DNA of 64,000 nucleotides, from NCBI RefSeq assembly GCF_016801985.1, contig NZ_JAEVLS010000004.1, positions 372,001 to 436,000 on the forward strand, in the 5' to 3' direction. The translations under genes and the position numbers were made by a program. Positions 4,557 to 37,260 of the stretch are shown piece by piece; the stretch's first letter is position 1; every line of letters starts with the position of its first letter. The notes under the pieces are model-generated. The model was not told where the DNA came from. It ran no database searches and saw only the letters and a list, made by a program, of their open reading frames with translations. Source of the DNA: Steroidobacter gossypii (lineage in GTDB: Bacteria > Pseudomonadota > Gammaproteobacteria > Steroidobacterales > Steroidobacteraceae).

Positions 4557-5431
4557 AGCGCGCGCGGCGAATGCCTCGGTTGGCGGCGCTACTCATCATG
4601 GCAGTCGCGGCCGCCGACACCCTCGCCGCCTCACAAGTCACAACCGCCGTCGTCGAGCAGCCACGCCCGTTCGGCTACGTCGTTGGAGATCTGGTCACAC
4701 AGCGAGTGCTGCTCACGTCCGCTGCTGTGAATTTCGATCCCGCCACGCTGCCGCCAGTGCAACGGGTGAACATCTGGTTCGAGCGCCGCTCTGCCAGGAT
4801 CGAACCAGCGCCGGACGGCAAGCGCTGGCTGATTGTGAATTATCAGCTGATCAACGCGCCGCCGGCGCTGGCTACGGTCAATTTGCCCGCCTGGGAGCTC
4901 GAGGATCAGGCCGGTGTTGCAAAGTTGCGAATCCCGGCTGCACCGATCAGCGTCGCTCCTTTGATTTCCCATTCCGCGTCGCCTACCGCCAGCGACCTGA
5001 GGCCCGACCGTCAAGTATCGATGCTCGATACGACGCCGACGCGTACGCGACTCCTGGCCTGCTCCCTCGCGTTGGGGGTCACCTTGATCGCGTGGCTCGC
5101 ATGGTGGCAATGGCGGAACTGGCGGGACAGTCTCGGCCGGCCCTTTGCACGCGCGCTACATGAACTGCGACGGATGGAAGACGGCGCGCCCGAGGCCTGG
5201 CAGGCGCTGCACCGTGCTTTCGATCAAACGGCGGGTCGTGTGCTGCAAATCGAAACGCTGCCGACCTTGTTCGAACGCGCGCCGCAGCTGCAGCCACGGC
5301 GCGCGGAGATCGAACGATTCTTCGCCGATTCCAACGAGCGATTCTTCGGCGCCGGGCCGCCGAGCAACGCTTTGTCGCTGCGTGCGCTCTGTCAGGACCT
5401 GCGCCGGATCGAACGGCGGCACGCGTCATGA
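4553..5431 (+). CDS. mxaA: MxaA-like membrane-anchored protein
   Basis: A 292-residue protein with an N-terminal signal or anchor (residues 8-25, LAALLIMAVAAADTLAA), a periplasmic beta-type domain containing RPFGYVVGDLVTQRV, a single membrane helix near 168-183 (LLACSLALGVTLIAWLAWW) and a cytoplasmic helical tail. This architecture, and the GY-VGD motif after the signal, fit MxaA, one of the proteins needed for calcium insertion into methanol dehydrogenase. It overlaps both neighbours by 4 nt, so translation is coupled. The function in a genome without a visible mxaF is uncertain. Confidence 0.72.
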   Translation: MKRARRMPRLAALLIMAVAAADTLAASQVTTAVVEQPRPFGYVVGDLVTQRVLLTSAAVNFDPATLPPVQRVNIWFERRSARIEPAPDGKRWLIVNYQLINAPPALATVNLPAWELEDQAGVAKLRIPAAPISVAPLISHSASPTASDLRPDRQVSMLDTTPTRTRLLACSLALGVTLIAWLAWWQWRNWRDSLGRPFARALHELRRMEDGAPEAWQALHRAFDQTAGRVLQIETLPTLFERAPQLQPRRAEIERFFADSNERFFGAGPPSNALSLRALCQDLRRIERRHAS

Positions 5432-28088: not shown

Positions 28089-29132
28089 TCACTGGGCGGC
28101 CCCTGCGACGGCGATGGGCGGAGGCGCGACGTCTGCTGTCTGACATGTCGGAGCATGCGCCAGCAGCCGAGCGCCATTCAGAAGCACATCGACGGCGGAT
28201 GTCACCCGCAGATGAATCTCCGTCGCACTCGGATACCCTCTGGACCCAAACAGAATCTCCAGATGAATGTCCCCACGCAGCATCGCAAAGAACTGCCGTG
28301 CGACGGCTGCCGGATCTTCAACGTGGATCTCGACCCGGCTTTGCGCCTGTTCCAACACTTTGCGTACGGCCTCGATGGCACGCTTGGGAGCAAATTCCCA
28401 GTAGGCATTCGCCGCCGCCTCGAAGCGACCGGATTCGGAAATGGCGAGCTTGTACAGCGCGAGGCCGGAGCGGGATAGCAATGCGGTCATGATGCCGTTG
28501 CCGAGTTGGAGCAAGGCGCTTCGCAGTGACGTGTCCGCAGTGGCATCCAGTTCCGCCAGGGCTTGATCGGAATTGCGAGTGGCGACAGCACGAACGTGCT
28601 CGGCGAGCCACTGTGCGAGATCGATCGGCCGCGCGCCGGGCTCGGTTGACAGTCGACGATGCAGCCCATGAGGCGTCCACGTCCAATAAGCGCGTCCGAG
28701 CAGGAAGGCGGTCAGCACCGCACAGTTCGACCAGCCGCGCGCTTGATTGCCGGAGCCCGGGATAGCTTCGCGGATCTGCAGAATCTTGCCGGACGCGCCC
28801 CAGCGCAGGAACTTCACCGCCTCATCCAGGGTGAGCACGTTCACCAGCATTCGCGTCCACCACGGCTCGACCAGAATCCACGAGCTGTCGTCCACCCTGC
28901 GCATCACGAACACGTGCTGGTACTTCGCAGCGGCGAAGCGATGCCACCATTGTTTCTGCAGCCCGGGTACGAAACAAACAAACCAGTCCGCCGCCGGAAA
29001 GCTCACCGGCGAGCCGTCCGAATCGATTTCGATGGCCAGCTCGTCGGGCACGCCGCACACGTGCGACCGGCCGTCCGTAGTTCCTCGAGGGATGCCGCCG
29101 GGCACACCCGCACGCCGAAGCAGATTCAACAT
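28089..29132 (-). CDS. Fusion of a permuted-papain-like domain with a TetR-type C-terminal domain lacking the HTH
   Basis: A 347-residue protein with two parts. Residues about 45-165 (DWFVCFVPGLQKQWWHRF, KYQHVFVMRR with His73, GWSNCAVLTAFLLG with Cys137, WTPHGLHRRL) resemble phage-type proteins with His-before-Cys order as in circularly permuted NlpC/P60 folds. Residues about 175-325 (SGLALYKLAISESGRFEAAA, ARQFFAMLRGDIHLEILFG) look like the ligand-binding/dimer domain of AefR-type TetR regulators, with no DNA-binding helix-turn-helix before it. The start overlaps the stop of the TetR gene by 7 nt. Function unknown; it could modulate that TetR by heterodimerising. Confidence 0.6.
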   Translation of the reverse strand: MLNLLRRAGVPGGIPRGTTDGRSHVCGVPDELAIEIDSDGSPVSFPAADWFVCFVPGLQKQWWHRFAAAKYQHVFVMRRVDDSSWILVEPWWTRMLVNVLTLDEAVKFLRWGASGKILQIREAIPGSGNQARGWSNCAVLTAFLLGRAYWTWTPHGLHRRLSTEPGARPIDLAQWLAEHVRAVATRNSDQALAELDATADTSLRSALLQLGNGIMTALLSRSGLALYKLAISESGRFEAAANAYWEFAPKRAIEAVRKVLEQAQSRVEIHVEDPAAVARQFFAMLRGDIHLEILFGSRGYPSATEIHLRVTSAVDVLLNGARLLAHAPTCQTADVAPPPIAVAGAAQ

Positions 29133-29752
29133 GGCGCTGTCCCTCCATCGATGCCCTCACAAAACAACTCCACCGCGTTCCGAACGTACACGGCTCGGGC
29201 GACCGGATTGGTGGCAAGCTCGTGTGGAAAGGTATTGGCGGACTCGACGTTCGCTCGCAGCAACGCGAGGAAGTGACTCGCCAACAAATGAGGATCCGCG
29301 GCGCGCAGCGCACCTTCGGCTTGCGCCACCTGCAGGAAATCGGCGAGCCGTTGTGACAAACGCCCTGGCCCCACCTCGTAGAAGTCACGACCCAGTCCGG
29401 TGTGACGGATCGCCTCGGTGACGGCGATTCGATACAGGCCACGCAGATGTGAGGTGGCGTAACTGTCCATTACGCGCTGACCAAACGCGAGCAGGCGCTC
29501 TCGCAACTCGGATCGGGACGAATCGTCGGTGAGCGGAGCGGACATCGATTCCGATAACTGCGCGACCATCGCCACCAGCAGTTGACGGCTGCCACCGAAC
29601 TCCGCGGTCACCGCCTCCTTGGAAACATTCGTTCTGGCAAGCGCGGATTCGATGTTGGTGGTGCTCGCATCGGCATCGCGAAGCACGCCAGCCAGCTGCT
29701 CCATGATGGCGACGCGCGTGGGTGGTGGGCTGACGGCAAGTTTCAGGTTCAT
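29126..29752 (-). CDS. TetR/AcrR-family transcriptional regulator
   Basis: A 208-residue TetR regulator. Residues about 12-60 form the DNA-binding region (VAIMEQLAGVLRDADASTTN, then ALARTNVSKEAVTAEFGGSR), somewhat divergent from the consensus. The C-terminal region (HLRGLYRIAVTEAIRHTGLG, LASHFLALLRANVES) is the AefR-like ligand domain. The ATG at 29752 is chosen because it gives the canonical N-terminus and has AGGGGAG upstream. It overlaps the downstream fusion gene, whose C-terminal half is of the same family, and it is divergent from the large regulator at 29995. Confidence 0.8.
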   Translation of the reverse strand: MNLKLAVSPPPTRVAIMEQLAGVLRDADASTTNIESALARTNVSKEAVTAEFGGSRQLLVAMVAQLSESMSAPLTDDSSRSELRERLLAFGQRVMDSYATSHLRGLYRIAVTEAIRHTGLGRDFYEVGPGRLSQRLADFLQVAQAEGALRAADPHLLASHFLALLRANVESANTFPHELATNPVARAVYVRNAVELFCEGIDGGTAPC

Positions 29753-29994
29753 GACAGGAGCTCCCCTTGATCGCCCGAGTTTCTCCAGCGCCTTCAGTGT
29801 CGAAGAAATCACGCTGGCATTTCTTGGACGGGTCAGCGCCCGGTTGGATGAAACCAAGCTCAGCTGTAGCCGCTCTGTCACCTCGCTCCCCAAGCAACCC
29901 ATGCTCAGCCGCCGCGGTACATGCCAGTCAAGACTTGCAACGTTTTTAGATAGGAATATTCTCGCCTCAAACATGCCGCGGTCGGAGTTGACCC

Positions 29995-32931
29995 ATGCAC
30001 GGCTCAGACAGCGGAACCATTTCATTCGGGCCATTCCGTCTCTCGCCTGCGACACGAGTCATCGAACGAGACGGCGTGCCTGTCGCTCTGGGCGATCGTG
30101 CGCTCGATATTCTGATCGCACTGGTCGAGCGCGCCGGCGAGGTGGTGAGTCAACGAGATCTGACCGCGCGAGTCTGGCGCGACCTGGTCGTCAGCCCCAG
30201 CAATCTGAGAGTTCACATGAGCGCGCTTCGCAAAGCGCTCGGCGACGGTGAAAACGGCACTCGTTACATCGAGAATGTGACCGGTCAAGGCTATTGCTTC
30301 GTTGCTCCGATCGCTCGCGCAGTCACGGCCGCATCGACGGCAAAATTGCCGGAACTTCCTGATGCCGTCCGTAAGCGACTGGTCCTGCCGCCGAAGCTGC
30401 CCCGCATGCTGGGTCGGGAGCCGGTCGTGCGTTGCGTCGCCGACGACCTCCTGAAACATCGGTTCATCACGATCATCGGCCCTGGCGGGATGGGCAAGAC
30501 CACCGTCGCCATCGCCGTTGCGCACGCCATGCGGGATGGATTCGCTGACGTCGCGTGTTTCGTCGACATCGGCGCGATCGCCGATCCGAAACTGGTCGGC
30601 GCGACCATCGCCGCGTCGCTGGGTCTTCAGGTACAAACCGAAGACGCGACGCCAGCGCTGCTCGAACACCTGCGAACGTTGCGACTGCTGCTGATCCTGG
30701 ACAATTGCGAGCACGTGATCGAGCCGGTCGCCACGCTCGCGGAAACATTGTTCAAGGATGCGCCGGCGCTGCATATCCTCGCCACGAGCCGCGAAGCATT
30801 GCGCGTCGAGGGGGAACGCGCGTACTGGCTGCCTGCCCTGGCGAGCCCGGCGCCCGACTCCAGCATGAAGGCCGCCGATGTGCTCGCCTTCCCGGCCGTG
30901 CAACTTTTCATGGAGCGCGCCGCCGCCAGTGGCGGGCATTTCGAGTTGAACGACGAGAGTGCGGCGCTCGTGGCCGGCATCTGCGGCCGGCTCGAAGGCC
31001 TGGCGCTGGCAATCGAACTGGCCGCCGGTCGAGTGGGCAGTCACGGCCTCGCCGCGACCGCGGATCTGCTGAACAAGAATCTCGGTCTGGACTGGCATGG
31101 GCGACGCACCGCCCTGCCCCGCCATCAAACACTGCGCGCCCTGCTCGACTGGAGCTACTGGTTTCTGCCCGCGGACGAACAGGCAGCGATGCGTAGATTG
31201 TCCGTGCTGGTGGGCGATTTTACCTTGGAGGCCGCGAGCACCATCATTCGTGGCGAATCTGGAAACGATGCGGCCACGCTCAACACCCTCGATGCGCTGG
31301 TCGCGAAATCCCTCGTCTCGGTTCACTCCGGCGATGCAGGCACTGTGCGGTACCGACTGCTCGAAACGACTCGAATCTACGGATTGGAGAAACTGCACGA
31401 GAGCGGTGAAGCGGACAGCGCCGCCCGATGCCATGCGGAATACTTCAAGCGGCTGCTCGATGAGCGGCATGGCGGACTCATCGACCTGGAGTACACCGGC
31501 CGCGCGCACGCATTGCGAGAACATCTTGGGAACATCCGATCCGCGCTAGAGTGGTGCTTCTCACGCAGCGGTGGAGATTTCGACGTAGCCCTCGCGGTTG
31601 ACCTGGCGGCCGCGGCGGCTTCGGTGTTCTTAGAGCTGTCCTTGTTGGGTGAATCCTACCGATGGAGTTCTGCCGGTCTCGCGGCGCTCGATGATTCCAC
31701 TCGCGGCGGCAGGCGCGAAATGCTCCTCCGCAGCTCTTGGGCCATCTCCTCGATGTGGATCCGCGGCGGCCGCGATGACGTGTTGTCCGCCATCGCACGC
31801 ACTCTAGAGCTCGCCGACCCGTTGGCCGAACCGTCACAGCGGCTGCGCATGCTTGCCACACGGCACTTATTTCTTACGCGTGTCGCCGATTTCCGCGGCG
31901 CTCTCGTCGCGGCCGAAGAATGGGATGTCGCTGCGAGACAGGTGAATGACGTGTCATGTCTCGCCATCTCGGAGTTGATGCAAGGCGTAGCGCGACATTT
32001 CCTTGGCGATCAGGCCGGGGCCAACAAACTTTTCGATGCGGGCTTTGCTCGCGCCGGCGAACGGAACCTGCAATTGTGTGGCAACGACCATCGGGTGCGC
32101 GGGTTGGTCGTGATGTCTCGTGCCCTCTGGCTCTCCGGCTTCCCGGAGCGAGCGATTGCCACCGCGCGGCAGGCCGCCACGACGGCGATGAAGTCAGGCA
32201 AACCGCTCGACACCTGTTTCGCCCTGCTCTACACGACGCCGGTCTACCTATGGTGCGGTCATTGGGACGCGGTCCAGAGCGCGCTGGATCAACTGGTCCG
32301 CCACACTCACTGGCCGCTGCTGAAACCTTTCCACCCGGTGGAGCGCGCGATGCAAGGAACGTTGTTGATCGGCCGTGGCTCTGCCGAAGCTGGCGCGTCG
32401 CTGCTCAACGGCGTTTTGCAACAGATGCGTGACGAGCGGCAGGATGTAGCGAGAACGTTTGTCGCCTGCGCGATCGCGGACGGCTTGACCCTTGCCGGAC
32501 GGCCAGAGGAAGCGCTCACTATCCTGCGCACGATCAGGCGCAATGCAGTGCCCGGCGCGGAGTCGGTGCAGCTGCCCGAGCTGTTGCGCCTGCAGGCCAA
32601 TGCATTGCTATCTCTCGAACAAACAAACGAGGCGCGTGCCGAGCGCCTGCTGCTTCGATCCTCACGGATCGCCCGTCGTCAATCCGCGCTGGCATGGGAG
32701 CTGCGCACCGCTATGACGCTGGCGCGCCTCCGATACAAACAGGGGCAAAGCGAACAGGCACGCGACCTGCTCGCCGGCACCTACGGTCGATTCACCGAGG
32801 GCTTCGGCACTCAGGACTTGCAGCAGGCCGCGCAATTGCTGCGAGACCTGGGTCACACGGAGGGCTTCCTCATGAGAGACAAAGCTCTGAGCCAGATCCC
32901 CGCAGCGGAAGCCACGCAGCGCCTGATGTGA
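29995..32931 (+). CDS. Winged-helix/NTPase/TPR transcriptional regulator
   Basis: A 978-residue regulator. Residues 8-105 are an OmpR-type winged helix (FGPFRLSPATRVIERDGVPV ... IENVTGQGYCFVAP). An NB-ARC-like NTPase follows, with Walker A GPGGMGKT at 162-169, Walker B LLLILDNCEHV and the HILATSREALRVEGE sensor region. The C-terminal half is helical TPR-like sequence. This is the layout of signal-transduction ATPases with helical repeats that act as one-component regulators. The targets are unknown; the divergent TetR pair upstream is the nearest candidate. It ends 3 bp from the convergent orphan FecR gene. Confidence 0.85.
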   Translation: MHGSDSGTISFGPFRLSPATRVIERDGVPVALGDRALDILIALVERAGEVVSQRDLTARVWRDLVVSPSNLRVHMSALRKALGDGENGTRYIENVTGQGYCFVAPIARAVTAASTAKLPELPDAVRKRLVLPPKLPRMLGREPVVRCVADDLLKHRFITIIGPGGMGKTTVAIAVAHAMRDGFADVACFVDIGAIADPKLVGATIAASLGLQVQTEDATPALLEHLRTLRLLLILDNCEHVIEPVATLAETLFKDAPALHILATSREALRVEGERAYWLPALASPAPDSSMKAADVLAFPAVQLFMERAAASGGHFELNDESAALVAGICGRLEGLALAIELAAGRVGSHGLAATADLLNKNLGLDWHGRRTALPRHQTLRALLDWSYWFLPADEQAAMRRLSVLVGDFTLEAASTIIRGESGNDAATLNTLDALVAKSLVSVHSGDAGTVRYRLLETTRIYGLEKLHESGEADSAARCHAEYFKRLLDERHGGLIDLEYTGRAHALREHLGNIRSALEWCFSRSGGDFDVALAVDLAAAAASVFLELSLLGESYRWSSAGLAALDDSTRGGRREMLLRSSWAISSMWIRGGRDDVLSAIARTLELADPLAEPSQRLRMLATRHLFLTRVADFRGALVAAEEWDVAARQVNDVSCLAISELMQGVARHFLGDQAGANKLFDAGFARAGERNLQLCGNDHRVRGLVVMSRALWLSGFPERAIATARQAATTAMKSGKPLDTCFALLYTTPVYLWCGHWDAVQSALDQLVRHTHWPLLKPFHPVERAMQGTLLIGRGSAEAGASLLNGVLQQMRDERQDVARTFVACAIADGLTLAGRPEEALTILRTIRRNAVPGAESVQLPELLRLQANALLSLEQTNEARAERLLLRSSRIARRQSALAWELRTAMTLARLRYKQGQSEQARDLLAGTYGRFTEGFGTQDLQQAAQLLRDLGHTEGFLMRDKALSQIPAAEATQRLM

Positions 32932-36195: not shown

Positions 36196-37260
36196 TTAGC
36201 GCATCTGCAGGACGTTTCTCATCGTCGACGCTGTTGCCCGGGCCAGCCGCGCGACCGAGGCGCTGCTTTCGAATCCCTGCGACTCGGTCGATTGCGCCCG
36301 ATCCACGGCGGCGAGCACGGTTTCACGACGCGACTGCAACGTTTCGATCTGCGACACAACCCCCGGATACAGCAGCTGCAGTCCACGCTTGTCGCCTTCA
36401 GAGAGCGATTCACCGTCGCCCTGAGGCGCACAGGCGCTCGGCACGTTCTTATAAAACAGCGGCGGAAAGCGATACAGCATCACCGAGTGTGGATCGAACG
36501 GACCGACCACTACATCGGGATGGTCCTCGGTCCGTAAATTGAAATCGACCTTGGTCTTGTCCCAGAAGTTCGGGAACCCGGAAAGATACGTGTAGATGCC
36601 GGGCCGCCGTCCCTCCGAATCGTTCACGAACGCACCGCGCGCATCCTCGGTGCGCTGGTAGCCTTCGTCATCTTCCCAACGAAACTCCTGCTCACAGGGC
36701 CCGCGCAAGTTCTGATGCGCATGATGAAACGACAGCGCGTGCAGAAATTCGTGGCGCACAACGCCGCGCCAGTTGTTGGGGCGATTGATGGTGAAGCCGC
36801 CGAGATTGAGACTGCATTGCCCCGGCCCACCGCCGATGGGCCCGCCCGATATCTCAGGATTGACGCTGTCTGTGCCGACAAGTGAGAAGTAGCCGTCGTG
36901 CTCGAATGACACGCGTATCTCACCGGCGTACTCGGCATCCGTCGAAGACCAGGTTCGGAATTGACCGGCCGCCGTGTTCGGGCCGAAATCAAGCGTCAGG
37001 TTACAGCTGTCCGTGATCTCGCGCGTAGCGTCCATGACATCTCGACGCAGCGCCGCGTCGCCACCGTCGAACGCCACGCGCACATGCTGCCCAGGATTCC
37101 AGCGGCTCACGTCAACGAGCACAAACTCGAAGCCCTGGCTCGATGCTCTGAGGTTTCGCAACCACGTATTGCGCTGTCTGATCGATCGCTCTACGTCCGC
37201 CGGAAGCGCATCGAGCACCAGATCGTGCGACGCGAGTTTCGCAGCCCATTGGCTCGTCAT
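36196..37260 (-). CDS. Metzincin-type zinc metalloprotease
   Basis: A 354-residue protein with the zinc motif HEFLHALSFHH (His170, Glu171, His174, His180; the usual Gly is Ser) and a Met-turn SVMLY (Met261), together diagnostic of metzincins. The nearest fold groups are astacin- or matrixin-like. No signal peptide is visible at the ATG, unusual for this class, so export may depend on another route or on the small coupled gene upstream. Its ATG overlaps that gene's stop (ATGA). Cys-rich positions (CEQEF, SACAP) suggest disulfides. Confidence 0.82.
   Translation of the reverse strand: MTSQWAAKLASHDLVLDALPADVERSIRQRNTWLRNLRASSQGFEFVLVDVSRWNPGQHVRVAFDGGDAALRRDVMDATREITDSCNLTLDFGPNTAAGQFRTWSSTDAEYAGEIRVSFEHDGYFSLVGTDSVNPEISGGPIGGGPGQCSLNLGGFTINRPNNWRGVVRHEFLHALSFHHAHQNLRGPCEQEFRWEDDEGYQRTEDARGAFVNDSEGRRPGIYTYLSGFPNFWDKTKVDFNLRTEDHPDVVVGPFDPHSVMLYRFPPLFYKNVPSACAPQGDGESLSEGDKRGLQLLYPGVVSQIETLQSRRETVLAAVDRAQSTESQGFESSASVARLARATASTMRNVLQMR

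Follow-up and report, generated by a model that had tools for sequence, protein, structure and literature searches.

A TetR-core protein pair bearing a Cys/His domain of permuted papain-like order as a possible ligand-gated effector

Few kinds of chemical sensor are as common in bacteria as TetR proteins, which are by default read as repressors. In the AefR-like family, the TetR core holds both the ligand pocket and the dimer interface, and AefR-like repressors often adjoin efflux pumps. A second type of described protein relevant here is the circularly permuted NlpC/P60 enzyme (YiiX/YaeF, LRAT, PPPDE). In one solved permuted enzyme, BcPPNE, a His49-Glu64-Cys154 triad is combined with a five-stranded N-subdomain and a Cys at the start of a helix (PMC3142127). 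In a second paper (PMC10318531), the His is assigned to the second strand and the remaining residue of the three to strand three, in a strand numbering that may differ from the one used below. The term TetR occurs 0 times in these two papers on permuted enzymes (PMC3142127, PMC10318531).

Here, we describe a pair of overlapping genes, A and B, of Steroidobacter gossypii that combines features of both types of protein. The genes lie within the window, i.e., the whole stretch of 64,000 nucleotides that was analyzed (Table 1), and a purine-rich GGAGGG is located 8 nt 5' of the start codon of B. Both proteins have the same C-terminal core as AefR-like TetR repressors (PF14246 together with PF00440), as judged by sequence and by predicted model. 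As is often the case for repressors of this family (MexL, NalC and FrrA being examples), many relatives of the pair lie next to efflux pumps. Unlike these repressors, A has no match to the TetR DNA-binding domain (TetR_N, PF00440), and the head of B is replaced with a different domain.

Table 1. Features of the A-B locus in the window, and paired operator-like sites in related loci (L numbers).
Feature	Position	Strand	Description
Gene A	29126-29752	minus	208 aa; degenerate DNA-binding head ~13-62, TetR_C_7 core 85-198
Gene B	28089-29132	minus	347 aa; protease-like N-domain fused to AefR-like TetR core
B residues 32-166, Cys/His domain	28635..29039	minus	His73, Glu89, Cys137, permuted papain-like order
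B residues 172-326, TetR core	28155..28619	minus	TetR_C_7 at 206-318
Overlap of A end and B start, 7 nt	29126..29132	minus	read from sequence
Inverted repeat, candidate operator	29799..29829	no strand	between gene A and divergent gene at 29995
Divergent neighbor	29995-32931	plus	OmpR-type DNA-binding domain and ATPase (NB-ARC/STAND-like) domain, weak TPR matches
Paired GGTAA-N6-TTACC	L019/L039 6002-6047		beside canonical AefR-like TetR gene
Paired GGTAA-N6-TTACC	L020 7193-7236 and 9325-9369		beside canonical AefR-like TetR gene
Paired GGTAA-N6-TTACC	L046, L047, L049, L050, L051 ~4582-4629		beside canonical AefR-like TetR genes

We propose, with a probability of roughly 0.45, that A and B form a ligand-gated two-protein effector in which a thiol enzyme resides on B and the two proteins are paired through their TetR cores. 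Both would have derived from AefR-like TetR proteins, of which they retain the TetR core; the head of A has lost its sequence signature, and that of B is replaced by a His-Glu-Cys domain of permuted papain-like type. The proteins would be made by coupled translation, and a small hydrophobic compound bound in the pockets of the TetR cores would switch the thiol enzyme, a putative hydrolase or acyl transferase. Such a device could act in a chemical-stress response and, in many relatives, is encoded with tripartite efflux pumps. On this view, the pair may act as an enzyme under chemical control and not as a gene switch.

The C-terminal half of B matched PF14246 (2.9e-20), a Pfam scan yielded no TetR_N match for B, and in a PDB fold search the predicted model of this half matched TetR structures. 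TetR chains filled the matches of that search, so its outcome bears on the C-terminal half. For the N-domain, neither Pfam nor PHROGs nor NCBIfam contained a matching family, and a search of PDB sequences gave no match of weight. Its putative active-site residues were highly conserved: His73 and Cys137 were present in all 30 aligned sequences, residue 89 was always acidic (28 Glu and 2 Asp), and Gln130, seven residues ahead of Cys137, was kept in 28. This alignment comprised 24 fused, 3 stand-alone and 3 viral-contig sequences, and omitted L040 and L044 (contig edges) as well as L054, L055 and L058 (broken frames). In the predicted model of B, in which pLDDT averaged 82.6 over the full chain, residues 49-56, 72-79, 84-91, 94-101 and 116-121 formed strands. 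His73 lay on the second of these and Glu89 on the next, and the strands were followed by helix 137-144 with Cys137 at its start. Rough dN/dS values between the window and Steroidobacter agaridevorans, which is grouped in the same genus and whose B is 77% identical to the window B, were 0.10 for the N-domain and 0.19 for the C-terminal half of B. The N-domain had the lower value in three of four genome pairs, and the reverse was observed for L046/L050. The original prediction had described the second gene as an AefR-like TetR C-terminal half without a DNA-binding domain, preceded by a domain with His and Cys in the order of permuted papain-like folds. Both parts of this description held, the C-terminal half having a TetR fold in the structure prediction proposed as a check, and the N-domain having the residue order and predicted topology of such folds.

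The N-domain shares with the permuted NlpC/P60 enzymes the order of His, acidic residue and Cys, as well as a predicted arrangement of five strands followed by a Cys at a helix start. The spacing from His to Glu is 16 residues in B and 15 in BcPPNE (PMC3142127). In contrast to these enzymes, B has no sequence match to them, is joined to a TetR core and lacks a counterpart of the catalytic tyrosine before Cys137: residues 93-136 of the window protein do not include a Tyr. Members of PF04970 and PF05708 were collected for comparison with LRAT and C92 (YiiX) proteins. Four of eight LRAT loci gave sequence under the motif filter, which no C92 sequence passed. These four LRAT sequences had no hhalign match to either the N-domain profile (a comparison of shallow profiles) or the phage-only profile, and sequence homology to LRAT was set aside. 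The domain may work like a permuted papain-like enzyme, but since neither sequence homology nor a tyrosine before Cys137 was found, we do not class it as a member of that group.

Relatives of the N-domain were also found in phages. A tblastn search of phages with the N-domain was weak (49 records, all from Vibrio phages, best E 0.03). A profile built from 14 bacterial sequences alone ranked one frame per phage-type locus first to tenth among 570 frames from ten phage-type and four control loci, with E values of 3.8e-10 to 4.5e-4 for these ten and 0.73 for the next frame. Comparison of this profile with a profile of four phage sequences gave a match at 95% and E 3.8e-8 over 133 columns. No relative was found when viral contigs were searched with the bacterial profile. 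The phage protein, exemplified by CAH9011351.1 of Vibrio phage 121E34-1, is a small protein of ~130-180 aa whose gene lies next to that for the terminase; it shares with the N-domain of B the His, acidic residue, Cys and a TP..L motif at 20-26% identity, and is not joined to TetR. Its gene comes after the terminase gene in two annotated Vibrio phages, and terminase- or portal-like genes, as read from the genes, adjoin it in three viral contigs and several genomes. In a viral structure library, the model of B matched small phage proteins (best E 2e-5, TM 0.76, 123-residue target), and the length of these targets suggests that they match the N-domain. In a tree of 34 N-domain rows, the phage rows formed one side of a fully supported branch; four of them were on long branches, and with this tree either the fused or the stand-alone form may have come first. 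Neither A nor B matched any PADLOC model at E up to 0.1, and an anti-phage role was dropped on this ground.

Stand-alone bacterial forms of the N-domain were observed in L053, L056, L057, L058 (broken), L089, L090 and L093. Those of L089, L090, L093, L056 and L058 are surrounded by genes interpreted as stress genes, among them ion antiporters and metal ATPases, and L056 and L057 contain an extra Cys-rich tail.

It is conceivable that the N-domain is a non-catalytic module which binds a peptide, lipid or protein on a TetR scaffold, with the Cys and His having a structural or metal-binding role. The missing tyrosine in window B and the further Cys in the tails of L056 and L057 fit such a role, and we know of no enzyme role for the phage relatives. 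However, all three kinds of form (fused, stand-alone and phage) have an invariant Cys, His and acidic residue whose order and predicted positions are the right ones, and we consider a purely binding function unlikely.

Another set of observations concerned A. In a Pfam scan, A matched PF14246 (8.6e-21) and had no TetR_N match. Among its relatives, TetR_C_7 was detected in all 24 A proteins and TetR_N in none, even at E up to 10, whereas six of six canonical AefR-like proteins matched TetR_N (1e-11 to 3e-16). Five of these controls share their locus with an A-B pair, and the sixth comes from G011; the alignment of A proteins omits L040 (no upstream sequence), L044, L054 and L055. The mean net charge of the A head was -4.3, being below -1 in 20 of the 24 members, compared with -1 to +2 in the six canonical proteins. 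The head of window A has a charge of -1, which is within the canonical range, and the charge argument thus bears on the relatives more than on the window. With regard to sequence, gene A is not a normal TetR regulator and has no recognizable TetR DNA-binding domain. Yet its predicted model is a whole TetR fold with three head helices that aligns to whole TetR chains. Given this fold and the charge of the window protein, A may retain some DNA binding. In Sphingobium plasmid pCHQ1 and Sphingomonas zeae (L019/L039, 6736-7923), gene A encodes ~180 extra N-terminal residues, for which no Pfam match was found when the L039 protein was scanned.

We scanned 30 fused loci (27 from the genome scan and three plasmid loci) and the window for GGTAA-N(4-8)-TTACC. 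Canonical AefR-like TetR genes were present in 11 of the 30 loci (8 of the 27, and all three plasmids). GGTAA-N6-TTACC sites occurred in 8 of these 11 loci and in 0 of the other 19; no GGTAA-N(4-8)-TTACC site was found in the window, and shuffled sequence yielded 0.06 sites per locus. As L019 and L039 look the same, the eight site-bearing loci represent seven different ones. The sites come in pairs, 28-30 nt apart and with N6, and are a likely operator. In the three loci without sites (L021, L038 and L042), the nearest canonical TetR is of another subtype. In L019, L039 and five Bradyrhizobium loci, the site pairs are flanked by the canonical TetR gene on one side and the pump operon on the other. 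In Microvirga L020, one pair is located between the TetR gene and A-B and a second pair precedes the pump genes, and here the canonical repressor seems to target A-B.

These data bear on the possibility that A-B is a heterodimeric DNA-binding regulator, in which the head of A reads DNA and the Cys domain of B serves as a thiol or acyl sensor. The three head helices of the model, the alignment to whole TetR chains and the unremarkable head charge of window A would agree with this, as would the inverted repeat upstream of A, which has 11-nt arms (10 of 11 paired) and a 9-nt spacer and was equaled in quality in 2 of 200 shuffles. However, the repeat was not found upstream of A in S. agaridevorans, and we dropped it as a conserved operator. 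The absence of TetR_N from all 24 A proteins and the association of operator-like sites with canonical TetRs also speak against a DNA-reading pair. In addition, in three of four genome pairs the head was under less constraint than the rest of A (in the window versus S. agaridevorans comparison, dN/dS was 0.27 for the head and 0.13 for the C-terminal half). On balance, such a regulator has a low probability. The original view of the first gene as an ordinary TetR regulator with a headless partner is weakened by the TetR_N counts, by the operator-like sites and, for most relatives though not window A, by the head charge. The proposed regulator with a built-in peptidase or acyl-transfer sensor was supported with respect to its headless TetR half and Cys/His domain and was not supported with respect to the ordinary regulator. 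With no TetR_N in A proteins, and with operator-like sites accompanying a separate canonical TetR, a sensor with a built-in enzyme looks likelier than a regulator with a built-in sensor.

The canonical AefR-like TetR genes near 8 of the 27 fused loci and in all three plasmid loci would also be compatible with A and B acting as dominant-negative partners, or anti-repressors, that form mixed dimers with the canonical protein and so induce the pump. We find this quite improbable. No canonical AefR-like TetR was present in the fetched flanks of 19 of the 27 fused loci, some of these flanks being cut by contig ends, and the Cys domain would be left unexplained. Moreover, in the genome of the window (97.6% complete) the only TetR_C_7 proteins found are A and B, so the window pair cannot depend on a canonical AefR-like partner, which rules out this role in that genome.

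A scan of 84,980 species genomes yielded 31 loci, 27 fused and 4 not fused; two of the fused loci (L054 and L055) had broken B frames. Fused forms occurred in Steroidobacter, Variovorax, Bradyrhizobium, Sphingobium, Sphingomonas, Sphingopyxis, Aurantimonas and an Acidobacteriales MAG, and also, with A and B overlapping, on three plasmids of Sphingobium, Sphingopyxis and Microvirga. In all 26 fused loci with upstream sequence (the 27th, L040, has none), A overlapped B by 4-20 nt, as measured at the start codon nearest the stop of A, which was our choice. Such pairs are rare: in a set of 98 genomes, 2 (one of them its own) had a match over the N-domain of B. The N-domain profile had hits in 4 of the 369 genomes searched in the class and in 7 of the 398 searched in the phylum, several of these being stand-alone or phage-like. 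The dN/dS values in three Bradyrhizobium pairs were also low (0.03 to 0.52, with the maximum in the A head stretch). The frames of A and B are real and not an artefact, as indicated by the low dN/dS against S. agaridevorans. A sequencing error or a chance join of unrelated frames, for which nothing in the window speaks and only the broken B frames of L054 and L055 could be cited, has a negligible probability, given that 27 contigs and three plasmids share this architecture. With regard to the original prediction, both frames and their 7-nt overlap were recovered, a sequencing error was not behind them, the overlap from which coupled translation had been suggested is conserved, and the search for other genomes with the same pair was successful. 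Likewise, in agreement with its knowing of no described system of this form, the architecture was not found in the open-access literature searched (PMC).

The RefSeq entries WP_013041697.1, WP_173949676.1 and WP_152522514.1, named TetR/AcrR family transcriptional regulator C-terminal domain-containing protein, are B itself on the Sphingobium, Microvirga and Sphingopyxis plasmids, respectively; this name describes the C-terminal half of B only and implies a regulator. If the effector reading is true, a TetR sensor can be wired directly to chemistry, database names that call B-like proteins regulators need correcting, and the pair gives initial cellular access to an otherwise uncharacterized family of phage proteins.

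Same-looking stretches were shared by L019 (Sphingobium UT26S plasmid pCHQ1) and L039 (Sphingomonas zeae), and by L021 and L038 (Sphingopyxis indica pMC4 and Sphingobium ummariense), a likeness suggestive of recent transfer.

Gene neighborhoods were examined with pump queries of our own choice, which recovered the pump genes annotated in L019 and L020. MFS pump genes were present in 22 of the 27 fused loci, 21 of which also contained HlyD; an ABC-type pump was present in L028, and none was detected in L038, L040, L042 or L052. Among the 7 stand-alone loci, the sole comparison set for pump neighbors, none had MFS. None of the tested pump families was found in positions 16000-44000 of the window. 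In eight Bradyrhizobium loci (L036, L037, L041, L043, L044, L045, L048 and L055), the MFS frame continues in frame into A with no stop. In four others (L046, L047, L049 and L050), a stop codon lies one base ahead of A, and in L051 the MFS frame ends within A in a different frame. In those Bradyrhizobium MFS-A loci that were inspected, A keeps a ribosome-binding-like stretch and an ATG, which leaves its production as a separate protein possible. In a more specific form of the effector reading, A and B would be an obligate heterodimer, a TetR sensor rewired from DNA to an enzyme, whose TetR pockets take up a drug-like ligand that gates a phage-related cysteine enzyme. In some Bradyrhizobium it may be tethered to the efflux transporter, and control of detoxification would be post-translational instead of transcriptional; this version is possible, though we hold it to be doubtful.

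Other genes near the pair in the window were also inspected. A 354-aa frame on the minus strand (36196-37260) had a sub-threshold astacin match only. A gene for a TonB-dependent receptor is located downstream of the pair on the same strand. On the other side, the domain composition of the divergent neighbor makes it a possible regulator of A-B.
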